64,000 nucleotides of DNA from Bacteroidota bacterium (GTDB lineage Bacteria; Bacteroidota; Bacteroidia; Bacteroidales; JAAUTT01), in assembly GCA_021779665.1 (NCBI GenBank), contig JAJYAG010000003.1, forward strand, positions 1 through 64,000. Reading direction: 5' to 3'. Position numbers and translations under genes: made by a program. Shown in pieces: positions 10,230 through 57,153 of this stretch (the first letter of the stretch is position 1; each line of letters begins with the position of its first letter). The notes under the pieces were generated by a model, which did no database searches, was not told the origin of the DNA, and saw nothing but the letters and a program-made list of their open reading frames with translations.

Positions 10230-11846
10230 ATGGTACCAATACTTGAATATATTGTAAAATCGGCCGTGTCGCTGGCGGTATTTTATTCTTTTTATTGGGT
10301 ATTCCTAAGAAAGGACACTCATTTTGTCCTGAACCGGGTGATACTTATTTCATCGTTAATACTTGCTTTTATTCTTCCGTTGATTAACCTGAACATTGAT
10401 CAGCCCGAGCCTGTGATTCCAACGCTTAATATAAACTTTGATGAACCTGTTGGCGCGGTTTCCGCAATCTCTCCTGCTGAAAAAGCGGGGTGGAGCACCT
10501 GGGAATTCATAACCTTAATTTATCTTGCCGGGGCAGCTTTTGTCCTTTTAAGGCTTGTTTACCAAAGCATTTATATGCAGGCGCTTTCACGACTTTCGAA
10601 ATCGGAAAAGCAAAGCGACTTTACCCTTGTTTACATGAAGAAAGATATAATTCCCTTCTCGTATTTCAATAAGATATTTATTCCTGAATCAGTCTCGGCT
10701 GAAAATGGATTACAAAGCATTATAGACCATGAAAAATCACATTTAAGGCAAATGCACTTTGTGGATCTTTTTCTGGTTGAAGTTATTACAATAATTCAAT
10801 GGTTTAACCCTTTTGCATGGCTTTACGAGCGTTCTGTAAAGGAAGTGCACGAGTATCTTGCCGACAGGTCGGTACTCAGCAGGGGGTATAACCAGGGGAA
10901 TTACCAGGCATTACTAGTAAATCAGGCAATGGGAGGACCGGTATTCACTATTGCCAATCAATTCAATCAATCACTTATTAAAAAACGAATTGTTATGATG
11001 ACAAAAATGAAATCACCCCGACTGGCGCAGTTAAAAAGTTTTCTGCTGCTGCCTGTAATTGCCATAATACTCATGGCTTATAACCAGCCCGAAAAAGCTG
11101 TTGAGGTTCTAAGCAGTCTTAATCCCGAAGCTTCTTTGATGCCTGCTTCAACTCCATCGCCGCAACCGGTTAATTTTCAGTCTTCTACCACACCATCTTT
11201 AAAAAAACGTGTAAGTAATGTTAAAGCTGAACAGATAAAAATTGTTGGTAAGGTTGTGAATAGTGAAACAGGTAAGGATATGCCGGGAGTTGCCATAGTA
11301 ATAAAAGGTACAACTACCGGAACGATTACTGATGATGCCGGCGATTTTGCCATTCTTGTGCCCGACAAAGATGCTGTTCTTGTATTTTCAAGTGTTGGAT
11401 ACAATACACAACTTATTCCTGTTAAAAATAGTGACAGGATGTACGTTAAAATGGAGGAAAGTATAGTTAAAATTAATTTATCAGGGCCTAACTCATTAAT
11501 TGCGAAAGACAAACCCGCAAGTTTTGAAAAATCGCCCGGAGATACCTATGTTGTTATAGAGGAACTTCCCAGCTATCCGGGAGGAACAGATGCTCTTAAA
11601 AAATTTATTGCTGAAAACCTGAATTATCCTGCTGATGCAAAGGGAAAGATTACTGGAATGGTAACGGTAAACTTTGTTATTGACAAAGAAGGGAACATAG
11701 TAAATCCAAAGGTTAGTAAAAGTGTATATCCTTCCATGGATAAAGAAGCGTTAAGAGTTGTAAAGTTGATTAAAGGATGGAAACCCGCAATGCAGAATGG
11801 CAAACCTGTCGCCTGCAAGGTAAGTTTGCCGGTTATATTTAAATAA
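10230..11846 (+). CDS. M56-family (BlaR1-like) membrane metallopeptidase with carboxypeptidase-regulatory-like and TonB C-terminal domains
   Basis: Three N-terminal membrane helices (about residues 10-28, 36-52 and 92-112) precede a gluzincin domain with His167-Glu168-x-x-His171 (HEKSH) and a downstream glutamate in HEYLAD near 209. A fourth helix lies near residues 262-280. The BlaR1 penicillin-binding sensor domain is absent. In its place the extracytoplasmic part has a carboxypeptidase-regulatory-like beta-sandwich (about 335-405) and a TonB C-terminal domain (about 455-538, ending GKPVACKVSLPVIFK). The TonB domain suggests sensing of, or contact with, outer-membrane transport. It should act with the BlaI repressor, cleaving it or triggering its cleavage. 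The M56-TonB arrangement is common in Bacteroidetes, with unknown signals. Confidence 0.9.
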   Translation: MVPILEYIVKSAVSLAVFYSFYWVFLRKDTHFVLNRVILISSLILAFILPLINLNIDQPEPVIPTLNINFDEPVGAVSAISPAEKAGWSTWEFITLIYLAGAAFVLLRLVYQSIYMQALSRLSKSEKQSDFTLVYMKKDIIPFSYFNKIFIPESVSAENGLQSIIDHEKSHLRQMHFVDLFLVEVITIIQWFNPFAWLYERSVKEVHEYLADRSVLSRGYNQGNYQALLVNQAMGGPVFTIANQFNQSLIKKRIVMMTKMKSPRLAQLKSFLLLPVIAIILMAYNQPEKAVEVLSSLNPEASLMPASTPSPQPVNFQSSTTPSLKKRVSNVKAEQIKIVGKVVNSETGKDMPGVAIVIKGTTTGTITDDAGDFAILVPDKDAVLVFSSVGYNTQLIPVKNSDRMYVKMEESIVKINLSGPNSLIAKDKPASFEKSPGDTYVVIEELPSYPGGTDALKKFIAENLNYPADAKGKITGMVTVNFVIDKEGNIVNPKVSKSVYPSMDKEALRVVKLIKGWKPAMQNGKPVACKVSLPVIFK

Positions 11847-11860
11847 TCAAAAAATAAAGG

Positions 11861-11892
11861 GGCTGACTTGTAGTGTTTTACTGAAGTCAGCC
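11861..11892 (+). other. Inverted repeat downstream of the M56 gene
   Basis: GGCTGACTT and AAGTCAGCC form a 9-bp perfect stem with a 14-base loop, 14 bases after the M56 stop. No T run follows on the plus strand, so it is a weak terminator or mRNA-stabilising hairpin rather than a clear intrinsic terminator. Confidence 0.55.
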
Positions 11893-25509: not shown

Positions 25510-26304
25510 TTATGATGTTCTATTTAAATAATTCCTTGTAAGTTCGAGGAGTTGTGGCTGTATTTTACCGGCGGCAATTACTTCAGGACAATAAACATCC
25601 TCATTACCGCTAAAGGTACTTGCAAATCCTCCGGCTTCCTTAACCAAAAGGTATCCGGCAGCAATATCCCATGAATGGAGGTTAAACTCGATAAAGGCAT
25701 CGGCATATCCTGCAGCAACGTAGGCCATATCAATTGCGGCAGAGCCGGTGATTCTTATTCCCAGTGAGTTTTCGTAAATGAACCTGATCAGGTCGAAATA
25801 GCTGCTTGTATTTTCACCCATATTATAAGGTGTTCCTATAATAATGAGGCTTTTTTCCAGCTGGTCGTTACTTTTTACGGTTATCTTTTCGTTGTTGCAA
25901 AAGGCTCCCTTTCCTTTACAGGCATAATAGCATTTGTCGGAAGTAATTTCGTAAGTAATGCCCAGTAAAATATCGTTCCCTTCGGCAAGAGCCAGTGTAG
26001 TTGAATATAAAGGGAAACCAGTAATAAAGTTTGTAGTTCCATCCAGCGGATCGACAATCCAGTTAATGGTTCCCGTTTTATCGGTAGTTTTTTCCTCGGT
26101 AATAAAACCTGCTTCGGGAAGAATTTTCGAAAGCTTTTCGACTAACATTCTCTCGGCCGTTTGATCTACATACGAAACCAAATCGCGGGCACTTTTATTT
26201 TGAACGGCCCCCTGGTCAAATCTTGTTCTTTCAGTTCTGATGTAATTCCCGGTTTCTTTAATAATATCGATAGCCGAACGGCAAAGTATTTCAAGATTGT
26301 TCAT
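25510..26304 (-). CDS. Inositol monophosphatase family protein
   Basis: Starting at the ATG at 26304 (MNNLEILCRSAIDI) gives 264 residues, the family norm; an upstream in-frame ATG adds ten residues. The metal-binding signature is intact: Glu70 in ITEEKTTD, Asp85 and Asp88 in WIVDPLDGTTNF, and the second motif HSWDIAAGYLLVKEAGG near 211-227. It is a Mg-dependent, lithium-sensitive-type phosphatase acting on inositol monophosphate or similar sugar phosphates such as glycerol-phosphate or PAP-like compounds. It is close to SuhB and converges with the chemoreceptor gene. Confidence 0.92.
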   Translation of the reverse strand: MNNLEILCRSAIDIIKETGNYIRTERTRFDQGAVQNKSARDLVSYVDQTAERMLVEKLSKILPEAGFITEEKTTDKTGTINWIVDPLDGTTNFITGFPLYSTTLALAEGNDILLGITYEITSDKCYYACKGKGAFCNNEKITVKSNDQLEKSLIIIGTPYNMGENTSSYFDLIRFIYENSLGIRITGSAAIDMAYVAAGYADAFIEFNLHSWDIAAGYLLVKEAGGFASTFSGNEDVYCPEVIAAGKIQPQLLELTRNYLNRTS

Positions 26305-26480
26305 AATTTGAGGTTTTGAATTCCAATAGTACAAAATATTATGACGGGAACGGTTAATATAACATTTAAGTTATTTTATTGTTTCCGGCCTTTATTATCA
26401 CTGTTCTTCAAATTTAACCACCAAAAGGTTTTACATATGAGCTAATCCATTATTTTTATGAAATTTTAAAGTACCATTTT

Positions 26481-27090: not shown

Positions 27091-29634
27091 ATGGTTCCTT
27101 CATTGAAAAAGCTTTTTGCGCTTATCGTCTTTGCAATAACTCAGGTTTACGTGCTTTGCGCTGCCGATGAAACTTCATTCAGGAGATATGATGAAAGCTT
27201 TTTTGTTATTTCCAACTTTTCCGGAGTTGATGCGGTAACCAGCGAGGATAAAAAAATAAGCGAATTGCTCCAGTCGGGAGTCGATGGTTTCCGTTTTCTG
27301 ATCGATTGGGACAAGTCAAACAATACCCTTATATTAAAAGAATCAAATGGTAATTCGATTTTGCTGATTGATGCTCTTACAACAATCAAAAACTATCTGG
27401 AGAGTCAGCCTGATAAGATACTTACGCTTTTTCTCGATTTTAATGTTAACATCAACGAATTAAACGATGTATTCGATAAATCAGGGCTCTTACCTTATTT
27501 GTACAGGCACGAAGAAGAAGCAGGCTGGCCGGCAATTTCAACTCTGGTTCAATCCGAAAAAAGATTGGTAGTATTTTCGATGCAGGAACACCGGTCGAGC
27601 CCCGACTGGGTGCATTATATCTGGAATTACGCGGTGGAACCTTATTTTTCGCTGATGGATGCTCCCGATTTTATTGGAGAGTATTTAAAAGGCGATCCCA
27701 AAAACGAACTGCTGATATATAACGAGTTTAATGTTCAGGGGCCGGGAGACAGGAACAAGCCTAAAAAGCTTGATCTTAATTTTAATCCATATTTGCTTGA
27801 GCATATAAAAAACGTTTGGTCAAAAACTGGCAAAGCGCCAAACTTTATTATGCTGGATAAGTTCGATCCCAATATAAGCAGGGTAATTTACTTCCTGAAA
27901 ATGTTTAAGACACTTAAGGGAACAGTAACTTTTAATACCCAGTTGCTCGATTATGTTAGCTGGGAAGGCCGTAATAGTCTAACAAGCGGAAAATTCAGTT
28001 TCCCAATAGGACCTGGTGATAATGTAACTTTAACACCACGCAGTCCGGGATACCGGTTCAAGCCAGAGTCGGTTGCTTTTGGCGAATTAAATACCAGCCG
28101 GGAACAACATTTTATTGCTTCGCCTCTGGATATAAACGAGGACCTGGAGGCATTTTACCCATTTGATAACAATATTAACGACATCAGTGGTAAAGGATTA
28201 AATGGCAATCCTATCGGAGTTGTTTTTCAGAAAGATAGCATACGTGGAACGGTTGCATTTTTTAATAACAAAAGTCACGCTGTGCTTTCAAAGTCGGAGG
28301 ATTTTAAAGTTCGTGACCACGATTTTACAGTAGCAGCCTGGGTTAAAATTGAAAAGTTTCTTCCCGGGAAAACAGATTATTGTATTTTGGGAACACCCAC
28401 AAATTCCTACCAGGAAGGGATTCATCTGGTTATCAGAAACCGGAAGCCTTACTTCGGATTCTACAGCAACGACCTGGAAGGGAACATGTTGTTCGACGAG
28501 AACAGGTGGTACCATGTTGTTTGGCGCTATACAAAACAAACAGGCGAGCAAGCCATTTATGTGAACGGTAAACTCGATTGTCAATCGTGGGGGCATCCCA
28601 GTTATAAGGGCAAGGAGAAATTGTTCATTGGCGTTGCAGGGTTCAGTTGGGAGTCAAATATGTACGGTAGCATCGATAACCTGATTGTTTGGAGCAGACC
28701 CCTTGGAAATGAAGAAATATGGGGTTTAAGCAAGAATATTGTGGAGGTGCTGCCCGTAAATAGTTTACTTTTCCGGTATTATTATCTGTTAATTGCACTT
28801 GGAGCAATCCTTATTGCGATATTACTTTATATTTTTCTCAGGAGACGATTGAATAAGAACAGAGAGCAGAAAATTTTCATTCCACGCAAAATAGAAGTAG
28901 ACCAGCAAGCTCAGAAAAGGAACTTTATCCGGTTGTTTGGCGATTTTATTATAATTGATAAAAATGGCGAGGATATCACATCAAGTTTTACACCTAAGCT
29001 GAAGCAGCTTTTCCTTCTTATCCTGGTTAATTCGCAACAGAATAAAAAGGGAATTACAACAAAAGAGCTTACCGACATTGTCTGGCCAAACCATTCCTAC
29101 CAGAATGCAAAAAACAGTCGCGGAGTCACAATCCGGAAGCTTCGTCTTTTGCTGGAAGTGATGGATAAGATTGAAATAGTTTTCCATGTGGATACCTGGT
29201 CGATGGAATTCTCGGGGAATGTTTACTGCGATTATGTAGAATGTTTGAAGCTGTTAGAGTTTGGCGATACCAATGATCCTGCATTTTATAAAGAGTTTTA
29301 CCGGATTGTTAAAAAAGGGGAAATATTTAAGGGTGAATCGCACGATTGGCTCGACGATTATAAAGGGCATATTGCTAATAATGTTGTCGATATTCTTTAT
29401 AAATACATACAAAAGCTGGATCAGAACACCGATCCTGACTTAATTCTAAAGCTCGCCGACAGGATATTGCTCGCTGACCCGGTAAACGAAGAAGCGCTTT
29501 CTTATAAATTAAAAGCGCTCATTAAACAGAATAACTATAAGAACGCAAAGTTCGCCTACGACAAATTCACCTCAAACTACCTTGAAATGTATGGAGAGAA
29601 ATTTGGGACGGCATTTGAAAAACTTATCGAATAA
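27091..29634 (+). CDS. Membrane-spanning one-component regulator: PLC-like and LamG sensor with SARP-type (winged-helix plus BTAD) output
   Basis: Four parts are seen in one 847-residue protein. Residues 1-24 are a signal peptide. Residues about 30-330 resemble a PI-specific phospholipase C-like TIM barrel (GVDGFRFLIDW, ILTLFLDFN, NFIMLDKFD), but the catalytic histidines are not evident, so it may only bind ligand. Residues 355-555 form a LamG/concanavalin-like lectin fold (LEAFYPFDNNINDISGKGLNG, FTVAAWVKI, WYHVVWRYT). A membrane helix spans about 562-585. The cytoplasmic part has an OmpR/PhoB-like winged helix (612-705) and a tetratricopeptide-like BTAD domain (715-847), as in SARP regulators. 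It should sense an external glycan or lipid head group and regulate transcription directly. The targets are unknown. Confidence 0.78.
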   Translation: MVPSLKKLFALIVFAITQVYVLCAADETSFRRYDESFFVISNFSGVDAVTSEDKKISELLQSGVDGFRFLIDWDKSNNTLILKESNGNSILLIDALTTIKNYLESQPDKILTLFLDFNVNINELNDVFDKSGLLPYLYRHEEEAGWPAISTLVQSEKRLVVFSMQEHRSSPDWVHYIWNYAVEPYFSLMDAPDFIGEYLKGDPKNELLIYNEFNVQGPGDRNKPKKLDLNFNPYLLEHIKNVWSKTGKAPNFIMLDKFDPNISRVIYFLKMFKTLKGTVTFNTQLLDYVSWEGRNSLTSGKFSFPIGPGDNVTLTPRSPGYRFKPESVAFGELNTSREQHFIASPLDINEDLEAFYPFDNNINDISGKGLNGNPIGVVFQKDSIRGTVAFFNNKSHAVLSKSEDFKVRDHDFTVAAWVKIEKFLPGKTDYCILGTPTNSYQEGIHLVIRNRKPYFGFYSNDLEGNMLFDENRWYHVVWRYTKQTGEQAIYVNGKLDCQSWGHPSYKGKEKLFIGVAGFSWESNMYGSIDNLIVWSRPLGNEEIWGLSKNIVEVLPVNSLLFRYYYLLIALGAILIAILLYIFLRRRLNKNREQKIFIPRKIEVDQQAQKRNFIRLFGDFIIIDKNGEDITSSFTPKLKQLFLLILVNSQQNKKGITTKELTDIVWPNHSYQNAKNSRGVTIRKLRLLLEVMDKIEIVFHVDTWSMEFSGNVYCDYVECLKLLEFGDTNDPAFYKEFYRIVKKGEIFKGESHDWLDDYKGHIANNVVDILYKYIQKLDQNTDPDLILKLADRILLADPVNEEALSYKLKALIKQNNYKNAKFAYDKFTSNYLEMYGEKFGTAFEKLIE

Positions 29635-30198: not shown

Positions 30199-30927
30199 AT
30201 GCAAACCGATAATATATTCAAGGTGCGGCAGGAAAGGTCCTCCGACTTTAAATTCGATGCCTCTGTGGTAGACGTGTTCGACGACATGGTGGTTCGTTCC
30301 GTTCCTTTTTATCTCGAGTTTCAACGGATGATAACTGAGATTTCACGCGATTTTTCTGTTCCCGGCACGTCTCTTTACGATTTGGGCTGTTCAACAGGCA
30401 CAACCATGCTTTCTCTTAATAAAGTACTCGATACTTCCGTAAAATTTGTTGGGATCGATAATTCCACTGAAATGCTTGAAGTTTGCAAGCACAATTTCTT
30501 AAAGGAAAATTTCAGCAGGGAGTTTGAGTTGCAATACCGCGACCTTAACAGACCTTTCGAAGTAAAAAATGCTTCAGTAGTGGTACTTTGCCTCACTTTA
30601 CAATTTATAAGACCAGTTTACAGGTTCAGATTATTACAATCCATTTATGAGCAGTTAAATCCGGGAGCGTGCCTGATCCTGGTTGAAAAGATCCTCGCCG
30701 AGGAGCCCAATTTTAATAAGGTAATGATTAAGTATTATTACGACTTTAAACGTCGCAATAGTTACGACGATATGGAGATTTCCCAGAAAAGAGAGGCCCT
30801 TGAGAATGTTTTGATACCCTATAAATTGAGTGAGAATATTGAGATGCTGATGGAAGCCCGGTTTAACTCAATTGAGACTTTTTTCAAATGGTACAATTTT
30901 GCAGGGATGGTGGCCTTTAAAAGTTAG
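30199..30927 (+). CDS. cmoA: CmoA-like carboxy-S-adenosyl-L-methionine synthase
   Basis: The protein matches CmoA over its full 242 residues. It opens with DNIF, and then shows VDVFDDMVVRSVPFY near residue 24, the class I methyltransferase motif YDLGCSTG at 60-67, FVGIDNSTEML, and the family-typical C-terminus FFKWYNFAGMVAFKS. CmoA makes carboxy-SAM from SAM and prephenate, used by CmoB to modify uridine 34 of tRNAs. CmoB is not in the window, so the product may serve a cmoB elsewhere or another carboxymethyl transferase. It is followed after two bases by a membrane methyltransferase-like gene, an unusual partner. Confidence 0.82.
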   Translation: MQTDNIFKVRQERSSDFKFDASVVDVFDDMVVRSVPFYLEFQRMITEISRDFSVPGTSLYDLGCSTGTTMLSLNKVLDTSVKFVGIDNSTEMLEVCKHNFLKENFSREFELQYRDLNRPFEVKNASVVVLCLTLQFIRPVYRFRLLQSIYEQLNPGACLILVEKILAEEPNFNKVMIKYYYDFKRRNSYDDMEISQKREALENVLIPYKLSENIEMLMEARFNSIETFFKWYNFAGMVAFKS

Positions 30928-30929
30928 TT

Positions 30930-31643
30930 ATGGCAAATACTTATGTTAAATCGCAATACGCTAATATGATTGTTCAATTCGGAAATTGGATTTTCCATAT
31001 CCGGAACTTTCTTTTCCCTTTATTTTATATTGCCTTGTTTATCCCTTCGCAACCTGTAATTCAGAATCAGGGAGCTGCTGATGTTTTGGGATTTACGCTC
31101 ATTGGCGCGGGAATCCTGATCCGCAGTGTAACCATTGGGCTGGTTTATATTGTCCGAGGTGGGAAAAACCGTCAGATTTTTGCTGATGATCTTGTAACAG
31201 GAGGTATATACAGTGTTTGCCGCAACCCTATGTACCTGGGTAACATTTTACTTTTAGCCGGTTTTGGCATCCTGGCCAACTCACTCTTGTTTCTGCTTTT
31301 GTTTTTTCCCCTTTTCGTCTTCTTTTATTTTGCAATTATCAAGGCTGAAGAAGCTTTTCTGTATAATAAATTCGGCAGTCAGTTTGAATCTTATCGAACC
31401 CGCGTGAAGGCGCTGCTACCCGATTTGGGAAATATTAAGAACGCATTTCAGGGGCAGGAGTTTAAGTGGAAAAAAGTATTAAAAAAGGAATACAACTCTT
31501 TATTCATTTATTTATCAGGAGTTTTGCTCATTTTTATCTATCAGGCAAGAATTTCTCCACAAGCCTTTCTGGTGAGTTTTATTGTTTTGATTTTACTTTA
31601 CATTACAGTTAAATTTCTGAAGTATCGTAAAAAACTGGACTAA
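30930..31643 (+). CDS. Isoprenylcysteine carboxyl methyltransferase (ICMT)-family membrane protein
   Basis: Six hydrophobic segments are visible. The ICMT/PEMT signature is present: VTGGIYSVCRNPMYLGNILL near residues 89-108, followed by a helix pair and EEAFLYNKFGSQFESYRTRV near 148-167, where Glu and Arg contact SAM in the family. The last two helices (about 190-205 and 212-230) are an extension beyond the bacterial minimum. It should methylate a lipid or isoprenoid-like substrate at the membrane. The start lies two bases after the cmoA stop, so the two are co-translated. Confidence 0.85.
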   Translation: MANTYVKSQYANMIVQFGNWIFHIRNFLFPLFYIALFIPSQPVIQNQGAADVLGFTLIGAGILIRSVTIGLVYIVRGGKNRQIFADDLVTGGIYSVCRNPMYLGNILLLAGFGILANSLLFLLLFFPLFVFFYFAIIKAEEAFLYNKFGSQFESYRTRVKALLPDLGNIKNAFQGQEFKWKKVLKKEYNSLFIYLSGVLLIFIYQARISPQAFLVSFIVLILLYITVKFLKYRKKLD

Positions 31644-31709: not shown

Positions 31710-31772
31710 GTATAATAAGTATAATTTATACATTTATTACCCCAATTAACCCTTAAATTAACCCGGGATTAA
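31710..31772 (+). promoter_or_regulatory. Inverted and direct repeats upstream of the cytochrome-SUMF1 gene
   Basis: Two dyads stand in the 178-base gap. GTATAA-T-TTATAC (31719-31731) is a perfect 13-base inverted repeat, with an extra GTATAA half-site at 31710. TTAACCCGGGATTAA (31758-31772) is a near-perfect palindrome, preceded by another TTAACCC at 31746. No full TTTG/TAnnTTTG promoter is seen, so the promoter may depend on an activator bound here. Confidence 0.45.
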
Positions 31773-31845
31773 CTCCGTTATAAACTTCAGATAAGGATTC
31801 ACTAATAGCCTGTATTTAGATTTGAATCGTATTTCAAAAATATTT

Positions 31846-33387
31846 ATGGGAAAACTACGCAGTCTTTTTCAAGGATTAAAGTCGGGTAAAAAAGCTTTCA
31901 TTGCATTTACTGTTTTAGGAGTAATAATCACCATTTTTATTTCAGCTTTAGGAGGGAAGGCAATCTCCTATACATCGAGTGATAAGTATTGCATGTCGTG
32001 CCATGTACACCCTCACGCTGAAAACAGTTGGAAACTTGGTGCACATCATAATAACAGAACCGGAGTTGTGGTTCACTGTTCCGAGTGTCACCTGCCTCCT
32101 AAAGGCCACGGCTATTTATATGCCAAAGCAAAACACGGGATGACCGATTTGTATGGATATTTATTCAAGGACACTTCAGAAATAAATTGGGAAAGCAAAC
32201 GCACAGTTGAAAAGGCTGATAAATTTGTTTATCAGGAATCGTGTATCAAATGCCACCAAAACCTGTTTCCTGCCACACTGTCGAAAGATGGCGATAACGC
32301 ACATCTTTATTTTCTTACAAGCAATCAGGGGCTGCGCTGTATTAACTGTCACCTGAATGTAGGCCATTTCGATCCAAAAGCAAAACACGAGCACAATACC
32401 AATTTTGGAGCGGATGTTGAACATACCGAAATATATACTGAAGCTGCCAAAGTTGATAAGTTTGAGAATTTCACCGAAAAGATTCCAGGCACAGGGGTTG
32501 CTTTCGATATGGTAGCAGTTCGCGGTGGTACATTTAAAATGGGTAGCCCTAAGGACGAACCCTTACGCGATGATGATGAAGGTCCTGTTCATCAGGTTAA
32601 AGTATCCGATTTCTGGATGGGTAAAATCGAGGTAACATGGGAGGAGTATCTCTCCTTCTTCAAAGCCACATCCTCACAGGGCAGAACTGAAGGAGAAGAA
32701 GTTAAAAATAAAAATGTGGATGCAATTACTGGTCCAACCCCCCCGTGGGGAGCTCCCGACCAGGGATGGGGTAAAGGTTCAAGGCCGGCCATCACCATGA
32801 GTTGGCATGCTGCAAGGGTATATTGCGAATGGTTGTCAAAGGTAACGGGCAAAAAATATCGTCTCCCAACTGAAGCGGAATGGGAATATGCCTCCAGGGG
32901 TGGTACCAGTTATCCTTACTTTTTCGATGGAAATCCCAAAAAATATTCTTCCAAAGGTTTCATGAAAAAAATCTTTGGTCCCGATACTTCGCAAATAGCA
33001 TCCAGAGTTATTTATAAGGAAAATAGTTACTCAAGAACTCAGGAACCTGAGATTGTGAAAGAAAATCCGTTTGGTTTAAAAAACATGTTGGGGAATGTTG
33101 CCGAGTTTTGTCTGGATTATTATTCGCCTGATGCTTATAACGCCCAAAAGGGTAAAATAGCTGTGGATCCAAGAGGTCCCAAGAAGGGAACGGAGCATGT
33201 GATAAGGGGCGGTTCGTTCATGAGTGATGCCAGAGATACCCGTTGTGCTGCACGCGATTTTACAAGAACCAAAGAATGGTTGGTTACCGATCCGCAAATG
33301 CCAAAGAGCATATGGTGGTATTCCGATTGTATCGACGTAGGATTTAGAGTTGTATGTGAAACAAAACCTGTTTTAGAGAAAAAATAA
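31846..33387 (+). CDS. Membrane tetraheme cytochrome c (NapC/NirT-like) fused to a SUMF1 domain
   Basis: The ATG at 31846 gives 513 residues; an in-frame TTG eight codons upstream is possible. After a membrane helix (about 17-40) come four heme sites: CMSCH 49-53, CSECH 78-82, CIKCH 133-137 and CINCH 165-169, a NapC/NrfH-like layout. Residues about 216-510 form a sulfatase-modifying-factor (formylglycine-generating enzyme) fold: DMVAVRGGTFKMGS, PAITMSWHAARVYCEWLS, LPTEAEWEYASRGG and GNVAEFCLDYY. In the C-terminal IRGGSF segment only one cysteine (Cys467) of the usual pair is seen, so formylglycine activity is doubtful. It opens a cluster with two sugar oxidoreductases and a ThuA protein, suggesting an electron-accepting role in the periplasm. 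Confidence 0.82.
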   Translation: MGKLRSLFQGLKSGKKAFIAFTVLGVIITIFISALGGKAISYTSSDKYCMSCHVHPHAENSWKLGAHHNNRTGVVVHCSECHLPPKGHGYLYAKAKHGMTDLYGYLFKDTSEINWESKRTVEKADKFVYQESCIKCHQNLFPATLSKDGDNAHLYFLTSNQGLRCINCHLNVGHFDPKAKHEHNTNFGADVEHTEIYTEAAKVDKFENFTEKIPGTGVAFDMVAVRGGTFKMGSPKDEPLRDDDEGPVHQVKVSDFWMGKIEVTWEEYLSFFKATSSQGRTEGEEVKNKNVDAITGPTPPWGAPDQGWGKGSRPAITMSWHAARVYCEWLSKVTGKKYRLPTEAEWEYASRGGTSYPYFFDGNPKKYSSKGFMKKIFGPDTSQIASRVIYKENSYSRTQEPEIVKENPFGLKNMLGNVAEFCLDYYSPDAYNAQKGKIAVDPRGPKKGTEHVIRGGSFMSDARDTRCAARDFTRTKEWLVTDPQMPKSIWWYSDCIDVGFRVVCETKPVLEKK

Positions 33388-33391
33388 TCAT

Positions 33392-34738
33392 ATGAGTTCA
33401 AAAAATATTGACCGCCGCAAGTTTTTAGAATCGACTGCTTTTGCAGGAATGGCAGGCCTGGCAGCCGGAGCTCTTTTAACCTCCTGTAAAAAAACTCCCG
33501 ACAATAAAGAATTGGGACTTCCCCCGATTTTAAACGGAGCCCCTAAAGGCCGCAAGTTAAGAGCTGGCCTGATAGGTGCCGGAAATCGCGGAACCGGGGC
33601 TGCCATTAACTTTCTGAGCTGCGGCCCCGACCTTGAAATTATTGCTTTAGCTGATGTTTTTCAGGATAAAGTAGATGGTTGCCGGCAGAGATTAGAAAAA
33701 TACAAAATGAACATCCCGGCAGAGAATTGTTTTGTTGGTTTCGACGGCTACAAAAAATTAATTGCACTGCAGGATGTTGATGTGGTTTTGCTGGCCACAC
33801 CACCTCAATTCAGGCCTGATCATTTTTTAGAAGCTGTTCAGAATAAAAAGCATGTCTTCATGGAAAAGCCGGTAGCTGTTGATCCTGTTGGGATCCGGTC
33901 GGTGATTGCTACTGCGAAAAAAGCCGAGGCACTGGGACTTTGTGTTGTAACCGGCACACAGCGTCGTCATCAGGAGGATTATATAGAAACCTACAAGCAG
34001 ATTGCAGGTGGCGCTATTGGTCAGATTGTTTCTGCAAAAGCTTACTGGAACCAGGCTCATGTGTGGTTCCGTACCCGCGAGGAAGGCTGGAGTGATATGG
34101 AATACATGATCCGTAACTGGAACAATTTCTGTTGGTTATGCGGTGATCATATTCTTGATACCCATGTTCATAATATCGACGTTATCAACTGGTTTATGGG
34201 TAAACACCCTGTAAGTGCAATTGGTTACGGTGGTCGCGTGCGACGTGTTACAGGTGATCAGTATGACTTTTTCAGTATTGATTTCGATTATGGTAACGGT
34301 GTTAGTTCTCACAGCATGTGCCGACAGATTGACAGTTGTGCAAATGGTACAGGCGAAATAATTATGGGAACAAAAGGATATACCAACTGCCGCAATACTG
34401 TCTGGAATCTGGATGGCAGCGTAAAGTGGAGCTTTGAATATCCTAAAGATCAGAACGGGAACCCGATGAATCAGATCAAAATTCCGCCCTATGTCCAGGA
34501 GCACATACATCTGGTTCATGCTATCCGAAAGAATGAATATGTTAACGAAGCGGAGCAAACAGCGCTATCTACGTTAACGGCAATTATGGGCAGAACTGCT
34601 GCATACACCGGTAAGCTTGTAACCTGGGACGAAATATTCAAATCGAATATGGATCTTGGACCCGAGAAAATCGAATTTGGACCAGTTAACATGCAGTTTG
34701 ATGTTCCTCTTCCGGGAACGCCAATCACAAACGTTTGA
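33392..34738 (+). CDS. Tat-exported lipoprotein Gfo/Idh/MocA-family oxidoreductase, first copy
   Basis: The N-terminus has a twin-arginine motif (DRRKFLES) and a lipobox (LLTS-C, Cys32), so the folded protein with its cofactor is probably exported and lipid-anchored. The Rossmann motif GAGNRG is at residues 62-67, the family EKP is at Glu158-Lys159-Pro160, and GDHILDTHVHNID at 251-263 holds the likely catalytic histidines. Relatives oxidise or reduce sugar carbons, often carbon 3, with tightly bound NAD(P). It starts 4 bases after the cytochrome-SUMF1 gene and is followed by a second family member, so all are probably one operon. Confidence 0.9.
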   Translation: MSSKNIDRRKFLESTAFAGMAGLAAGALLTSCKKTPDNKELGLPPILNGAPKGRKLRAGLIGAGNRGTGAAINFLSCGPDLEIIALADVFQDKVDGCRQRLEKYKMNIPAENCFVGFDGYKKLIALQDVDVVLLATPPQFRPDHFLEAVQNKKHVFMEKPVAVDPVGIRSVIATAKKAEALGLCVVTGTQRRHQEDYIETYKQIAGGAIGQIVSAKAYWNQAHVWFRTREEGWSDMEYMIRNWNNFCWLCGDHILDTHVHNIDVINWFMGKHPVSAIGYGGRVRRVTGDQYDFFSIDFDYGNGVSSHSMCRQIDSCANGTGEIIMGTKGYTNCRNTVWNLDGSVKWSFEYPKDQNGNPMNQIKIPPYVQEHIHLVHAIRKNEYVNEAEQTALSTLTAIMGRTAAYTGKLVTWDEIFKSNMDLGPEKIEFGPVNMQFDVPLPGTPITNV

Positions 34739-34766: not shown

Positions 34767-36077
34767 ATGGTAAACAAGTCATCACGAAGGGAGTTTCTCA
34801 GGAAAGCAGCTGCCACAACAGCCGGGGCGTTTATTCTGCCCCAGATTGTGCCTGCATCGGCACTTGGATTAAATGGAAAAACGCCACCCAGCGACAGGAT
34901 AGTTATGGCTGGTATTGGTGTGGGTTCTCAGGGTAAGAGCAACATGCGGAGCTTTTTGAATAAAAAGGAAATTCAGTTTGTTGCGGTTTGCGACGTCGAT
35001 AAAAACAACGGTCTTTCTGCAAAGGACCTTGTTGATAAGCAATACGCAAATTCTGACTGCCGTCAGTATTCTGATTTCCGGGAGATTCTGGAGAAGGAAA
35101 AACTCGATGCAGTTTGCCTCGCATTGCCTGATCACTGGCATGCTATCATTTCAGTAAATTGTGCTAACAAAAAGCTCGATATATATGGTGAAAAACCTTT
35201 GGCCAGAAGTATCCGCGAGAGCCAGGCTATAGTTAATGCTGTTAAAAAGAATAATATTATCTGGCAAACAGGTAGTTGGCAACGTTCAGTCGAAAATTTC
35301 CGCATTGGTGCTGAACTTGTTATGAACGGCCGTATTGGAAAGGTTAATTATGTGGAGGTAGGACTTCCGGATGGTAAGAGATCTATTGGTACTCCGCCTG
35401 TTATGCCTGTTCCTGAGGGCCTCGATTGGGAATTCTGGTTAGGACCGGCTTTAAAAGTTCCCTACAGGGGAGTATGCCATTGGAACTGGCGCTGGATTCA
35501 GGATTATTCAGGAGGGCAGTTAACCGACTGGGCGGGTCATCATATCGACATTGCTCATTGGGGACTTGGATTCGACAGAACAGGTCCGGTAAGTGTTGAA
35601 GGTACAGGAATATATCCAAGAGAAGGTATTTATGATGTGGCTGTTGAATACGACTTTTTATGTACTTACGCCAATGGTGTAAAAATGCGGGTAGCGAATG
35701 CATCGCGTTTGAAACATGGCATGGGAACTGTATGGCATGGCGAAAATGGTTGGATTCAGGTAAACAGAGGTAATGTTTTGGAAGCTTCCGATCCGTCTAT
35801 CCTTAAAAATATAGTTAAGCCCGGTGAAAAACTTCTTTATAAAAGTACCGATCATCAGCAGAACTTCATCGACTGTATCCGCAGTCGTAAGGAAACCATC
35901 ACTCCCGCTGAAATAGCGCATCGTTCCATCTCGGTAGGATTGCTAGGTGAAATAGCAATGCTGACAAATACAAAAATACAATGGGATCCTGAAAAGGAAG
36001 AAATAATTGACAACCATTATGCAAGCCGGCTTTTAAACAGGCCTTACCGTGAACCTTGGACTTTACCAGTAATTTAA
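34767..36077 (+). CDS. Tat-exported Gfo/Idh/MocA-family oxidoreductase, second copy
   Basis: A twin-arginine signal (SSRREFLRKAA) without a lipobox opens the protein. The Rossmann motif GVGSQG is at residues 51-56, EKP at 142-144, and the Bacteroidetes-type C-terminal domain has LDWEFWLGPA, YRGVCHWNWRWIQDYSGGQLTDWAGHHIDIAHW and PREGIYDVAVEYDF. It is only distantly related to the first copy, which suggests different substrates or successive steps, for example oxidation of a glycoside and of the released sugar. It lies 28 bases after the first copy and 12 bases before the ThuA gene. Confidence 0.9.
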   Translation: MVNKSSRREFLRKAAATTAGAFILPQIVPASALGLNGKTPPSDRIVMAGIGVGSQGKSNMRSFLNKKEIQFVAVCDVDKNNGLSAKDLVDKQYANSDCRQYSDFREILEKEKLDAVCLALPDHWHAIISVNCANKKLDIYGEKPLARSIRESQAIVNAVKKNNIIWQTGSWQRSVENFRIGAELVMNGRIGKVNYVEVGLPDGKRSIGTPPVMPVPEGLDWEFWLGPALKVPYRGVCHWNWRWIQDYSGGQLTDWAGHHIDIAHWGLGFDRTGPVSVEGTGIYPREGIYDVAVEYDFLCTYANGVKMRVANASRLKHGMGTVWHGENGWIQVNRGNVLEASDPSILKNIVKPGEKLLYKSTDHQQNFIDCIRSRKETITPAEIAHRSISVGLLGEIAMLTNTKIQWDPEKEEIIDNHYASRLLNRPYREPWTLPVI

Positions 36078-36089
36078 ACTCAGGAAACC

Positions 36090-37301
36090 ATGAAGAAAGC
36101 AATTATATTTTTACTGATAACCGGAGTATTTTCTGCTTTTTACGGGTGTAAAAAGCAACATGCCTATAGCGCATTAATAGTAACCGGACAAAATAATCAT
36201 AACTGGAAAGCAAGTTCCAGAATTCTGAAACAACTACTGGATCAAACTGGTTTATTCTCTACTGATATTATTGAAACTCCGGCTGCAGGAAAGGATATGA
36301 CTTCCTTTGCTCCCGACTTTCAGAAGTACGATGTGGTAGTGATGGATTATACAGGCGATTCCTGGTCGGACAAGACAAAGAGCAGTTTTGAAGAATATAT
36401 CAAAGCTGGTGGCGGACTTGTTATATACCATGCTGCCGACAATGCATTCCCGGAATGGAAAGCTTACAACGAAATGATTGGTCTTGGCGGCTGGGGTAAA
36501 AGAAACGAAAAGGACGGACCTTATATTTATATGAAAAAGGATTCTTTAATAACAGATACAACTGCCGGACCCGGTGGGTCGCATGGCAAAAGACATGAGT
36601 TTGTTGTTAAAGTAAGAAACGAAGAACATCCGATTACCAAAGGTTTACCTAAGAAATGGCTGCATGCTGAGGATGAACTTTACAGCCAGTTAAGAGGGCC
36701 GGGCAAAAACATGGAAATTCTTGCAACTGCTTATGCCGATACAGCTCAGAAAGGTACCGGACGCGATGAACTGGTTTTGTTTACGGTAACCTACGGCAAA
36801 GGACGAATATTCCACACTGTATTGGGACATGCAGGTAACGATACAACAGCTTTTCCGGCTATGGAATGCCAGGGGTTCATTACCACCTTTCAAAGAGGTG
36901 CCGAGTGGGCTGCCAGTGGCGTAGTTACTCAGACTGTGCCGGAAGGGTTTCCTAATGCTGCAGGAGTTGTTCAACTCGAAAATTATAAGCCTTTAACCCT
37001 TGAGCAATTGATGCGGAATGTTGAAAACTACGATATTGCCAAGAGTCGTAAATATTTCTACGATCTGCAGAGCCGAATACGCTCATCCGATAGAACTCCG
37101 GCAACACTTTTGTCATTTGAGAAGTTAATTGTAAAATCACTCAAAAAGAAGAGTGTTTCAGCTGATGCAAAAAGGCTGCTCATCAAAGAATTGAGCTGGA
37201 TGGGCTCTGATTATAGTATTTCAGTTTTAAAAGATATGCAAAAGGAAACTGAACTGAAGGATGAAGCTCAGTTTGCTTTGGCAAGGTTAGAGTCAAAGTA
37301 G
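36090..37301 (+). CDS. ThuA-domain lipoprotein with C-terminal helical repeats
   Basis: The lipobox FYG-C (Cys20) makes it a lipoprotein. Residues about 26-290 form a class-I-glutamine-amidotransferase-like ThuA domain: LIVTGQNNHNWKASS, YDVVVMDYTGDSW, GGLVIYHAADNAFPEW, WLHAEDELYSQLRGP and GRIFHTVLGHAGND. ThuA-type proteins take part in catabolism of 3-keto sugars made by ThuB-like Gfo/Idh/MocA enzymes (trehalose and related disaccharides). The last 110 residues look like HEAT-type helices. Its position directly after two such oxidoreductases supports a shared extracytoplasmic pathway. It is the last gene of this cluster before the glycosyltransferases. Confidence 0.85.
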   Translation: MKKAIIFLLITGVFSAFYGCKKQHAYSALIVTGQNNHNWKASSRILKQLLDQTGLFSTDIIETPAAGKDMTSFAPDFQKYDVVVMDYTGDSWSDKTKSSFEEYIKAGGGLVIYHAADNAFPEWKAYNEMIGLGGWGKRNEKDGPYIYMKKDSLITDTTAGPGGSHGKRHEFVVKVRNEEHPITKGLPKKWLHAEDELYSQLRGPGKNMEILATAYADTAQKGTGRDELVLFTVTYGKGRIFHTVLGHAGNDTTAFPAMECQGFITTFQRGAEWAASGVVTQTVPEGFPNAAGVVQLENYKPLTLEQLMRNVENYDIAKSRKYFYDLQSRIRSSDRTPATLLSFEKLIVKSLKKKSVSADAKRLLIKELSWMGSDYSISVLKDMQKETELKDEAQFALARLESK

Positions 37302-37328: not shown

Positions 37329-38270
37329 ATGCTATCTCTGGTTATTCCAATTTTTAACGAAGAATGCCTGATTGAAGAATTGGTAAATCGTTCAGTGGCG
37401 GCACTGGAGCGGTTTACCTCTGATTATGAAATAATTCTGGTTGATGATGGAAGTACAGATTCCAGTTTAGCAATACTCCTCGATTTTCAAAAGGCTAATC
37501 CCAAACTGAAAATTCTGAGCCTTTCCAGAACTTTACGACATCAGGCGGCTTTTACCGCTGGTCTCGACCATGCAACAGGCGATATTATTGCCATGATGGA
37601 TGGAGATCTTCAGGATCCTCCCGAACTCTTCGAAGCCATGTACAAAAAAATTACCGAAGAAGGGTTCGATGTCGTTAGCGGTAAACGAAACCGAAGGATT
37701 GGCAAGGGAAGCCGGATGTTTTATACTTTTTTATTTCACCTGCTGTTTAAAAAGCTCGCCGGAATTAAAAACATGGAGAATACTGGTAATTTTTCCATGA
37801 TGAAACGCAATGCCATGGATGCCCTCCTGAAAATGAATGAGAAAGTACGGTATCTTCCGGGCTTGCGTTCTTTTATTGGATTTCGTCAGGGATTTATTGA
37901 ATATGTGCGTGAAGACCGGAAGATTGGCGATACAAAAATGAATCTGAATAAGCTGTTTCTCTTAGGAGCTGATGCCATATTTTCTTTCTCAAAGTTCCCC
38001 ATCAGGATGTGTATGGTTTTGGGGATAATGGGAACGATCATTTTTATGATTGCCGGAATTTACGTAATCATAGCACGTATTCTGGGGCTTGCAGTTCTTG
38101 GCTGGTCATCAACCATGCTGAGTATATATTTTTTGGGTTCCATTCAGCTGATATTCATGGGAATCATTGGGGAATATGTATTCAGAATTTATAAGGAGTC
38201 GCAAAACCGACCTATATATTTTGTAGGTAAATTCTATAAAGCTGAAAACGAGGACAAAGAGGCAAAATGA
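37329..38270 (+). CDS. Family 2 glycosyltransferase, polyprenyl-phosphate sugar type
   Basis: A GT-A domain covers residues 1-220 with LVIPIFNEE, VDDGSTD (38-44), the metal-binding MDGDLQDPPE (90-99) and RKIGDTKMNL. Two membrane helices follow (about 228-250 and 258-285). This layout is that of DPM1/GtrB/ArnC-like enzymes that move a sugar from a nucleotide donor to undecaprenyl phosphate on the cytoplasmic face. The gene ends in an ATGA overlap with a GT39-type transferase, which would use the lipid-linked sugar on the outer face. The pair therefore forms a plausible two-step glycosylation module. Confidence 0.9.
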   Translation: MLSLVIPIFNEECLIEELVNRSVAALERFTSDYEIILVDDGSTDSSLAILLDFQKANPKLKILSLSRTLRHQAAFTAGLDHATGDIIAMMDGDLQDPPELFEAMYKKITEEGFDVVSGKRNRRIGKGSRMFYTFLFHLLFKKLAGIKNMENTGNFSMMKRNAMDALLKMNEKVRYLPGLRSFIGFRQGFIEYVREDRKIGDTKMNLNKLFLLGADAIFSFSKFPIRMCMVLGIMGTIIFMIAGIYVIIARILGLAVLGWSSTMLSIYFLGSIQLIFMGIIGEYVFRIYKESQNRPIYFVGKFYKAENEDKEAK

Positions 38271-40324
38271 CCCCAAAAGTGTTTAAATATATCTTCTTTT
38301 TGCTAGCCTTTATAATTTTGGCAGGGATGCTTATTACAAGCAAAGATGCCGGAATTTCGGGTGATGAGGAGGTGCATTATAAACAATCCGAAATGGTGTA
38401 TCAGTATTTTGCCACCCAGGGGGAGGATAAATCGTCCCTGAGTACACCGGTTACACACCTGAAATACTACGGACAGGCCTACGATAACCTTGTAACAATT
38501 CTGATTCATTGGTTTTCTGTTGAAGATATCTACACGTTTCGCCACTTTATGAGTTCTGTTGCTGGTTGGCTTGCCATATTTATAACCGGCTTGCTGGCAG
38601 TTTCACTGGGCGGATATTCAGCAGGAGTTCTGGGCTTAGTTCTTTTTGCAGTTTCTCCAACTTTTTTGGGGCATGCGCATAACAACCTGAAGGACGTTCC
38701 TTTTGCTCTCGCGTATGTTGCCACCATCTTTTTTATGGTGAGATTATTCTTTTTTGACAAGACATCAAAAACAAGCTTATTGTTGCTGGTTTTTAGCATT
38801 GCTCTTGCCATAGGTATCCGACCGGGTGGACTTTTGGTTGTAGCTTATCTGTGGTTTTTTGTTACCCTTGAAACGGCTTATAGAAATCGGAGTACACACA
38901 GAGTCGACTGGACAGCTCTTAGAAAGAGATTCTTACTTATAACCGGGATATCTGTTTCTGGATATTTACTTGGGTTGATTCTCTGGCCTTATGCGTTGCA
39001 AAACCCTGTTTCCAATCCCTGGAAATCGTATCAGGTAATGACTCACTTTCCTACTACCATAAGGCAAATATTTGAGGGGAACTTAATATGGTCCGACCTG
39101 CTCCCATGGTATTATCTGCCAAAGTCGATGCTTATTACAATTCCCATTATTGTTTGGGTGGGAGTTGTACTGTTTATCAGTTTTGGTTGGAAATTAATCA
39201 AGGAAATGCCTGTTTTATATGTGTTTCTGGTATTTGCTCTAATATTTCCTCCTGTTTTTGCTATTATTAAAAAATCGAATCTTTACGGAAGCTGGCGGCA
39301 TTTTCTGTTTATTTATCCACTTTTAGTGGTATTGGCGGCGCTTGGATTTAATTACGTGTTGTTGCTTTTCAAGAGTAAGGTGATAAAAGTTGCAGCCGTT
39401 TTTATAATCATTTTACTGGCTTTTCACCCGTTCCGGTTTATGGTTAAAAATCACCCTTATTATTATTTGTATTACAATCAAATAGCCGGAGGACTTAAAA
39501 AAGCCTACGGAAATTACGAGACCGACTATTATTATCATTCGGTTCGCGAAGCTACTGAATGGTTGGTTCAGCATCTGGAAGAAAATAATATCAAATCGGC
39601 TGTGATTGGTTCAAATTTCATGATTTCGTGGCATTTACGCGATCATCAAGAATTTAAGCCTGTATTTTTTTCTTGGGATAAGCGCAGCCGGGCCGATTGG
39701 GATTATGCTATTGTAGCCAACAGCTATATTTTACCCTATCAGTTGCGAAATAACATCTGGCCGCCTCAAAATGCAATTCATAACATTTCCGTTGAAGGAG
39801 TACCTGTATGTACTGTTTTAAAGAGAGAAACAAAATCGGATCTGGAAGGAATTAATGCATTTCAGGCAGGAGAGAATGCTGCTGCTATCGAAAAATTAAG
39901 CGCTACTGCTAAAGCTGATAGCACCAATGAAACAATTTATTACTTTCTGGGACAGGCATATGCAAAATCAGGTAAAAGAGCTGCTGCCGACTCAGCATAT
40001 AAGCTTAGCCTGAAATGGCATCCTCAGTACGAAGTGTCGTTGTTTGAACTGGGAAAAAGTGCGGAAGCCAAAGGAGATATTGAGGGTGCCATAAGTTACT
40101 ATGATAAATTGATTGAGGCCAATCCCAAGTTTCTCAGGGCATACATTTTAAGAGCTAAATTTTTTCCGGATACCGATCGTGAAAAAGCAAGGAAACTCTT
40201 AAGGTATTGCCTGTCAATTAACTCTCGTTATGTGCCGGCAATTAATGCCTTAGCCGATACATACCGTGATACAGAGCCTTCGGTGGCGGAGAAGTATTAT
40301 AACCTTGCTAAATCGATTAAATGA
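38267..40324 (+). CDS. GT39-type (ArnT/PMT-like) membrane glycosyltransferase with C-terminal TPR domain
   Basis: About eleven hydrophobic segments fill residues 8-415, with the acidic first periplasmic loop near residues 25-35 (GISGDEEVHYKQ) typical of GT39/GT83 polyprenol-dependent transferases. A soluble part follows, and residues about 530-685 are tetratricopeptide repeats (YFLGQAYAKSGKRAAADSAY, LFELGKSAEAKGDIEGAISY). The enzyme should move a sugar from a polyprenyl-phosphate donor onto an external acceptor; the TPR domain may bring the target. Its ATG overlaps the stop of the GT2 gene. The acceptor, protein or glycan, cannot be told. Confidence 0.82.
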   Translation: MTPKVFKYIFFLLAFIILAGMLITSKDAGISGDEEVHYKQSEMVYQYFATQGEDKSSLSTPVTHLKYYGQAYDNLVTILIHWFSVEDIYTFRHFMSSVAGWLAIFITGLLAVSLGGYSAGVLGLVLFAVSPTFLGHAHNNLKDVPFALAYVATIFFMVRLFFFDKTSKTSLLLLVFSIALAIGIRPGGLLVVAYLWFFVTLETAYRNRSTHRVDWTALRKRFLLITGISVSGYLLGLILWPYALQNPVSNPWKSYQVMTHFPTTIRQIFEGNLIWSDLLPWYYLPKSMLITIPIIVWVGVVLFISFGWKLIKEMPVLYVFLVFALIFPPVFAIIKKSNLYGSWRHFLFIYPLLVVLAALGFNYVLLLFKSKVIKVAAVFIIILLAFHPFRFMVKNHPYYYLYYNQIAGGLKKAYGNYETDYYYHSVREATEWLVQHLEENNIKSAVIGSNFMISWHLRDHQEFKPVFFSWDKRSRADWDYAIVANSYILPYQLRNNIWPPQNAIHNISVEGVPVCTVLKRETKSDLEGINAFQAGENAAAIEKLSATAKADSTNETIYYFLGQAYAKSGKRAAADSAYKLSLKWHPQYEVSLFELGKSAEAKGDIEGAISYYDKLIEANPKFLRAYILRAKFFPDTDREKARKLLRYCLSINSRYVPAINALADTYRDTEPSVAEKYYNLAKSIK

Positions 40325-49675: not shown

Positions 49676-50050
49676 TTCCGAAAACAGCATCCTCGTTTCA
49701 GGCTAAGGTTTCCAAAACAAATCTTATTTCATTTCTCGCCTTAAATCAAATTACCATGCGGTTATGTTGTTGAATTTCAACACATAAAAAATAAGTGTGC
49801 TTTTTACACATTTTTACACCATAAATACACAATTCTCCACCTCAATTTTCTTCACTCCCGATACTTTTACACCTGCCGGACTTTCTCTTACATCCGGGCA
49901 ATTATAGTAACTACTAATTATTAAACTAATGAAACAATTTTTATGGGAGGTATAAATAATCAGAGAGTCCTGATTTTAGCAGCTGGAAATTATGCGGTTC
50001 GTTACCGTGAATCTGGAGTAAAAAAGTAAATCAATAAAATCGATGATGAT
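49676..50050. other. 375-base leader region between HTCS and the GH51 gene
   Basis: The gap holds the TTTTACAC-type repeats described at 49801-49873. It also holds two short open frames (8 codons from 49929, 28 codons from 49943) that may be leader peptides or chance, and a 6-bp hairpin AATCAG-N6-CTGATT near 49958-49975. No classical -33/-7 promoter is seen, as expected for an HTCS-activated promoter. Confidence 0.5.
49801..49873 (+). promoter_or_regulatory. Candidate HTCS binding repeats upstream of GH51
   Basis: TTTTTACAC occurs at 49801 and 49811, followed by TAAATACAC at 49822, so three ACAC ends fall about 10-11 bases apart on one face of the helix. A fourth TTTTACACC is at 49865. AraC-type output domains bind direct repeats of this spacing, so this is the likely site for the neighbouring HTCS. 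Confidence 0.55.
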
Positions 50051-52027: not shown

Positions 52028-52073
52028 AACTCTCATCTTCATACACTAACTATTAATGAACAAATTAAAATTT

Positions 52074-52112
52074 ATGAAAACAACTAAACTGATGATTTAT
52101 GAAAACAAGTAA
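52074..52112 (+). other. Duplicated 5' end of the lipoprotein gene (12-codon upstream frame)
   Basis: ATGAAAACAACTAAACTGAT at 52074 is an imperfect copy of the true gene start 25 bases downstream (ATGAAAACAAGTAAATTAAT at 52099). The upstream copy reads 12 codons in another frame and stops at 52110-52112, just inside the gene. It looks like a short tandem duplication and may act as an overlapping leader. Confidence 0.6.
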
Positions 52113-53826: not shown

Positions 53827-53852
53827 TAGTACGATAAAAATATTAAATATGA

Positions 53853-53887
53853 AACCCGCATGTTTTGCGCAACACAGCATGTGGGTT
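53853..53887 (+). other. Hairpin between the lipoprotein gene and susC
   Basis: AACCCGCATG pairs with CATGTGGGTT (10 bp with one G-T pair) across a 15-base loop. No T run follows. Between a binding-protein gene and a highly expressed SusC gene it may act as a partial terminator or an mRNA-processing or stability element. Confidence 0.6.
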
Positions 53888-53920
53888 CCATCTGACCTTT
53901 AACATTAAAAATATAAACAG

Positions 53921-57130: not shown

Positions 57131-57153
57131 AATAATTTAAAAACAGAGTCAAT

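Follow-up and report, generated by a model that had tools for sequence, protein, structure and literature searches.

A candidate transmembrane SARP-type regulator in Bacteroidota, with exchangeable ectodomains and a predicted 11-bp repeat operator

SARPs are chiefly known as soluble actinobacterial activators, the type being best known from antibiotic-producing Streptomyces. A preliminary description of a 64,000-nucleotide stretch of Bacteroidota DNA (contig JAJYAG010000003.1; this whole stretch is called the window here) assigned a DNA-binding output of this type to a chain that also carries a signal peptide, a phospholipase C-like barrel, a LamG domain and a membrane helix. The locus thus raises the question of whether such a protein is an isolated curiosity or the representative of a wider group of regulators, and of which genes it might control and by what means.

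One chain from putative periplasmic sensor to SARP-type output

The open frame and the order of its parts agree with what had been described, and are as follows:

27091..29634, + strand: regulator gene, 847 aa, open frame starting with ATG; 22 orthologues with the same layout
27091..27165, + strand: signal peptide, aa about 1-25, from a hydrophobic stretch at 8-26
27178..27894, + strand: degenerate PI-PLC-X-like TIM barrel, aa about 30-268, from alignment to a PLC-X protein, a model and structural matches
27898..28125, + strand: transthyretin/CnaB-like beta domain, aa about 270-345, from VIA matches with Z 7-8 over about 70-76 residues (moderate)
28276..28719, + strand: LamG domain, aa 396-543 (PF13385, E 3.4e-16)
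28783..28839, + strand: membrane helix, aa 565-583, from hydropathy and the positive charges behind it
28918..29214, + strand: OmpR-type winged helix, aa about 610-708, from an AlphaFold model and structural matches
29230..29631, + strand: BTAD-like helical domain, aa about 714-847, from the AlphaFold model and AfsR/EmbR matches over the whole output

LamG is the only domain of the window protein above the Pfam cut-off (60.2 bits against 27.6), and the hydropathy profile contains a single internal hydrophobic helix, at 565-583, followed by RRRLNKNR. These positive charges, together with the signal-peptide-like N-terminus, point to a sensor outside and an output inside. Neither a kinase nor a receiver domain was found in the chain by Pfam and profile scans, and the regulator would bypass a phosphorelay. 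Since the same layout recurs on 22 other contigs when named genomes are scanned with an alignment of the output, it is neither an assembly nor a fusion artefact; at least two of these contigs (L047 and L048) are, by their lengths, G002:C394 and G003:C10.

Profile searches of PDB sequences were uninformative, with nothing useful for the PLC part and chance-level rows only for the output, so that folds were needed for the assignment of both. In the barrel region of the window protein Pfam gave no match above cut-off, and the row below it was PF25506 (MTC6 TIM-barrel, E 0.0011). Residues 92-259 do align with a secreted-type protein encoded at locus L041 (pair E 2e-27, 30% identity over 170 aligned positions), which itself has a PI-PLC-X match of 2.5e-9 and a Por secretion tail. 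A structure model of the N-terminal region had been suggested as a check of the PLC fold. The model of residues 25-345, built from 23 sequences and of moderate confidence (mean pLDDT only 65.1), is PLC-like: its leading structural matches are mostly PI-PLCs, and every match at VIA Z >8.1 is one. These matches and the sequence link through the L041 protein connect the barrel with PI-PLC-X. The beta domain behind it, at about 270-345, is a part that the preliminary description overlooked. A link with inositol, suggested by a nearby Inositol_P-family gene (25510-26334), was considered and dropped, as no such gene was matched at the orthologue loci.

The general acid-base chemistry of PI-PLCs requires both catalytic histidines. 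As the preliminary description had supposed, neither is present at its position in any of the 22 aligned rows (the window and 21 orthologues, L054 being left out of this count for its late ORF start), and among four more distant members one (L138) has the first histidine without the second and the other three lack both, which looks as if an enzyme had decayed step by step into a receptor. One may ask whether the barrel is still an enzyme with an altered active site, acting on a lipid or glycan besides signalling, given that it is strongly conserved, that the PNFI..D motif preserves its Asp in 22/22 rows and that L138 retains the first histidine; with the pair missing from all aligned rows and the second histidine from all four further members, we regard this as very unlikely.

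The output is where fold and profile searches diverge. An AlphaFold model of residues 600-847, calculated with 68 rows (the window and 67 of 68 loci), reached a pLDDT of 92.9, and the only PDB chains at Foldseek E <= 0.001 were AfsR and EmbR (six chains). VIA Z scores were 14.8 for AfsR (232 residues) and 13.6 for EmbR, the matches spanning 228-232 residues, with the next row at 10.0; the winged helices of ToxR and CadC were also among the structural matches. Identity to AfsR and EmbR is 13-14%. Pfam does not recognise the winged helix or the BTAD domain in the window protein, a PF03704 search of its own genome did not pick up the regulator, and Pfam plus NCBIfam applied to the output of 10 members gave nothing above cut-off. 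Among the 10 members of alignment A2, PF03704 and PF00486 had a single match apiece, at 0.005 and 0.045, and the BTAD profile was found in 2/45 Kelch-type members (see below), the best at 0.0013. The winged helix and BTAD domain proposed earlier are thus clear by fold, though not by Pfam, and the model suggests an output with the fold and, by prediction, the function of a SARP, forming a distant branch outside the Pfam family.

A family with exchangeable sensors

Scanning named genomes with this alignment of the output gave 68 loci. The PLC-LamG-membrane helix-output layout is found at 22 of them, mostly from genomes named Prolixibacteraceae or Sunxiuqinia, and its carriers include cultured Sunxiuqinia and Gaoshiqia. 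The remaining 46 have only the membrane helix and the output in common with the window regulator, and a Kelch-type profile was matched in 44 of the 45 non-PLC members scanned (one fragment of the 46 was left out; L112, a 187-aa fragment, was dropped from alignments A4 and A5). Within the order of the window the output is present in 28/393 genomes and the PLC part is matched in 8/393; in G031, G040 and G238 the latter occurs only in frames of at most 423 aa, too short for the regulator layout. The regulator is therefore no singular oddity, and belongs to a conserved family whose ectodomains are exchangeable.

The two kinds of loci differ in their surroundings. By BLAST with example ORFs, SusC-like ORFs were found in 24 of the 37 non-PLC loci of at least 10 kb, at no more than 1.5 kb from the regulator in 15, against 1/21 PLC-type loci and none within 1.5 kb (0/21). 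Three of the SusC examples, taken from the window, L071 and L089, are TonB plug proteins by Pfam, and two SusD examples and one GH92 example were also checked. Judging by this proximity, the Kelch-type relatives seem to regulate loci for glycan use. The window has an ordinary glycan-use locus of its own at 45203-58908, where a long hybrid two-component-like ORF is followed by TonB-plug and SusD proteins (Pfam).

An orthologue with 38% identity (WP_211744650.1, on NZ_OY725768.1) occurs in Parabacteroides distasonis beside Gfo/Idh and sugar isomerase genes. Although labelled a plasmid, the record has rpsA and lpxB on it and seems to be chromosomal; directly 3' of its regulator gene, at 11750-11890 of the locus, there are GC-rich repeats of the GTGCCA/TGGCA type with a pitch of about 11 bp.

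The linked operon and its predicted operator

Downstream of the regulator in the window lies a set of genes of which the first is the predicted target:

31846..33387, + strand: NapC/NirT cytochrome c + FGE-sulfatase fusion, by Pfam and synteny
33392..34738, + strand: Gfo/Idh/MocA oxidoreductase 1, by Pfam, at 21/22 loci
34767..36077, + strand: Gfo/Idh/MocA oxidoreductase 2, by Pfam, at part of the loci
36090..37301, + strand: ThuA-like protein, by Pfam, at part of the loci
37329..38270, + strand: glycosyltransferase family 2, by Pfam, at most loci
38267..40324, + strand: PMT-like membrane protein with TPRs, by Pfam (PMT_2 below cut-off), at most loci

The NapC/FGE and first Gfo/Idh genes accompany the regulator at 21 of the 22 PLC-type loci, the exception (L050) being a contig that breaks off a short way past the regulator. 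GT2 and the PMT-like gene are present at most PLC-type loci, and the second Gfo/Idh and ThuA genes are variable. Operon genes were matched at none of the 46 other loci. NapC/FGE is found in 14/99 related genomes and also occurs without the regulator, and at all eight further loci examined it adjoins a Gfo/Idh-1-like gene. One of these eight, in the window's own genome, is a second NapC/FGE-Gfo/Idh pair (G000:C274, 8444-11394) with neither regulator nor 11-bp array, and with another short-named Tat-type gene downstream. Between regulator and operon, the window holds a methyltransferase and a phospholipid/isoprenylcysteine-type methyltransferase gene (30199-31643) that were unmatched at the 22 orthologue loci. 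From the gene families, our guess is that the operon serves periplasmic oxidation of sugars or glycosides, with electrons passing to the NapC-type cytochrome; nothing on this operon was found in the literature searched on 3-keto-sugar pathways.

TAnnTTTG is the -7 consensus of Bacteroidota. Upstream of the NapC/FGE gene, a putative element of this kind is preceded by an array of direct repeats:

31745..31810, + strand: predicted operator, six direct repeats with TAA starts at 31747, 31759, 31770, 31781, 31792 and 31803, the array being conserved at PLC-type loci
31817..31824, + strand: predicted -7 box, TAGATTTG, its start 14 bp downstream of that of the last TAA

On inspection, the listed TTG start of NapC/FGE (31822) falls in this box, and the ATG at 31846 is the likelier one.

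The first repeats are close to TTAACCC, and the pitch is 11 bp with a first gap of 11 or 12. At strict 11-bp spacing, 5 or 6 of 6 TAA were counted in each of 21 regions (20 orthologue loci and the window), with 6 of 6 in 12 of them, against at most 3 of 6 at periods 7-10 and 12-15; none of 21,000 dinucleotide shuffles reached 6 of 6. The two loci omitted from this first count, L067 and L050, both have 6 of 6 at 11 bp, which brings the total to at least 5 of 6 in 23/23 loci. Orthologous regions are not independent of one another, but relatedness itself creates no period. The TAA core was picked after the sequences had been seen, the guards being the period controls, eight regulator-free operons and loci fetched later. 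Among the latter, the divergent L137 and L138 (35% identity) have 5 of 6 each and no more than 3 at other periods; the homologous NapC/FGE genes without regulator have at most 3 of 6 in 8/8 cases. No clear TAA array, with 2 of 6, was found at L139 (a 29% relative with other neighbours) or at the P. distasonis locus.

Other searches set bounds on this pattern. With no preset core, a search for 4-mers repeated identically four times at a constant period gave an 11-bp signal at 0/22 PLC-type loci, because the repeat units vary beyond TAA, and at 3/46 other loci, all intergenic. Six TAA at exactly 11 bp had no match in the window's own genome, since the array in the window opens with a gap of 12. 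The five-TAA pattern is imperfectly specific, with 2 matches in G000, one of them elsewhere; its reversed control gave 1 match in G000, 13 in G002 and 2 in G003.

As to its position, the last TAA starts 14 bp upstream of a TAnnTT[TC]G box in 16/22 regions (two with an extra TAA after it), the box being unmatched in the other 6/22. In SARP promoters, as far as an excerpt of PMC10936776 describes them, the repeats stand 11 or 22 bp apart with the 3' repeat 8 bp from the -10 element, and a partial view of PMC5930380 has them as heptamers with 4-bp spacers. If the unit is framed as TTAACCC, a framing of our own, 8 bp are left to the -7 box and the array has the spacing given for SARPs. It belongs to the operon promoter and stands apart from the regulator in the window, with two genes between, and in L067, with about 4.5 kb between. 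Autoregulation was considered and discarded: none of the 21 PLC-type loci whose upstream DNA extends for 150 bp or more has an 11-bp TAA array 5' of the regulator. At many PLC-type loci (such as L049, L050, L051 and L055) one inverted half-site, GGGTTAA, stands a little way past the regulator stop codon, some 60-90 bp 5' of the array; it may serve as a distal site or belong to a terminator.

Arrays of the same pitch accompany some of the Kelch-type relatives. At 8/46 of these loci, at least 4 of 6 TAA or TTA cores recur at 11 bp, and from the end of the array it is 13-16 bp to a TAnnTTTG box. Counted with TTA cores, period 11 gives 4 or more at 8 loci, against 0, 0, 1 and 0 loci at periods 9, 10, 12 and 13; with TAA cores the figures are 5 against 0, 0, 0 and 1. 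The box faces the divergent gene, away from the regulator, in 7 of the 8 loci, and in L089 it faces a downstream TonB-plug gene. By the same measure no array was found at the other 38/46 loci: either the rule does not hold throughout or these loci have other cores.

Proposed mechanism and relation to known systems

We consider it quite probable that the regulator is a one-piece transmembrane SARP activator of the NapC/FGE-Gfo/Idh operon, its DNA binding, ligand and activating role being predictions. The periplasmic half, with its degenerate PLC-X barrel, beta domain and LamG domain, would bind a ligand outside the cell, in all probability a glycan or else a headgroup that is glycosylated or phosphorylated; the LamG domain and the operon's sugar enzymes speak for a glycan or glycoside. 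The signal would then pass through the single membrane helix, and the winged helix and BTAD halves may align side by side on the six 11-bp repeats, a number that suggests cooperative stacking and would extend the afs box of AfsR, for which the part of PMC10936776 consulted gives two repeats and two protomers. By analogy with AfsR, the promoter-proximal protomers might dock the sigma factor and recruit RNA polymerase, with the repeats taking the place of the upstream promoter element. A membrane-held SARP could act in place, like CadC, which the excerpted literature presents as a one-piece transmembrane activator.

The same data could be read otherwise. Soluble SARPs act freely, and between the helix and the winged helix there is a poorly conserved stretch of about 25 residues, so that proteolysis on signal might free the output from the membrane to work as a soluble SARP; but none of the linked genes listed stood out as a protease and CadC, on the account just mentioned, is an activator that spans the membrane in one piece, which makes release unlikely in our view. 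The array might also be the site of another factor, for instance a soluble regulator, the membrane protein being a mere neighbour or controlling something else. The lack of a clear array beside the L139 and P. distasonis relatives would fit this. Nonetheless, the array goes together with the regulator and is missing from all eight homologous operons that lack it, 11-bp arrays recur beside family members with different neighbours, and pitch and spacing match the available parts of the SARP descriptions; we give this explanation little credence. Much the same low likelihood attaches to the regulator repressing the operon instead of activating it: repeats extending close to the -7 box would suit repression too, but SARPs with repeats so placed are described as activators in the excerpts of PMC10936776 and PMC5930380.

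The comparisons thus support the preliminary description on the parts of the protein and, for the most part, on their meaning; what is new here, at the level of sequence, is the family, its fixed operon linkage and the predicted operator. In the literature searched, with most subscription papers outside its scope, no description was found of a membrane SARP, a Bacteroidota SARP or the Kelch-type locus regulator. On balance we favour the view that the transmembrane SARPs of Bacteroidota constitute an undescribed class of sensor-regulators, with a Kelch propeller at glycan-import loci and a pseudo-phospholipase together with LamG at an operon of periplasmic redox and sugar genes, in which ligand binding would stack as many as six protomers, each held in the membrane, on a DNA ladder of 11-bp steps that replaces the upstream promoter contact. 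If so, SARP promoter logic has been transferred to the membrane and into a phylum whose promoters are different, a dead enzyme is used as a receptor, and a membrane-spanning SARP branch near SusC/SusD and glycosidase genes in many species would be a further class of glycan-locus regulators. The predicted operator allows target and mechanism to be tested together, and cultured carriers are available in Sunxiuqinia, Gaoshiqia and Parabacteroides distasonis.

The regulator shares features with several known systems. Its barrel shares the fold of the bacterial PI-PLC X domain, and a sequence relation through secreted Bacteroidota PLC-X proteins, but lacks both catalytic histidines. SusR and the hybrid two-component systems likewise have an N-terminal periplasmic sensor, a membrane helix and a cytoplasmic DNA-binding end, and relatives of the regulator adjoin SusC/SusD or GH92 genes; the difference is a SARP-type output with neither kinase nor receiver. 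ToxR and CadC also combine a sensor, one membrane helix and an OmpR-type winged helix in one chain, with the DNA-binding domain at the N-terminal, cytoplasmic end, whereas here the periplasmic part is N-terminal and the DNA-binding part C-terminal, with a BTAD domain in addition. Closest in the output are AfsR of Streptomyces and EmbR of Mycobacterium, in which an OmpR-type winged helix followed by BTAD matches the whole output and 11-bp direct repeats stand beside the promoter; in the window regulator, by contrast, this output comes C-terminal to a signal peptide, an ectodomain and a membrane helix, and the predicted operator has six repeats where the afs box of AfsR has two.
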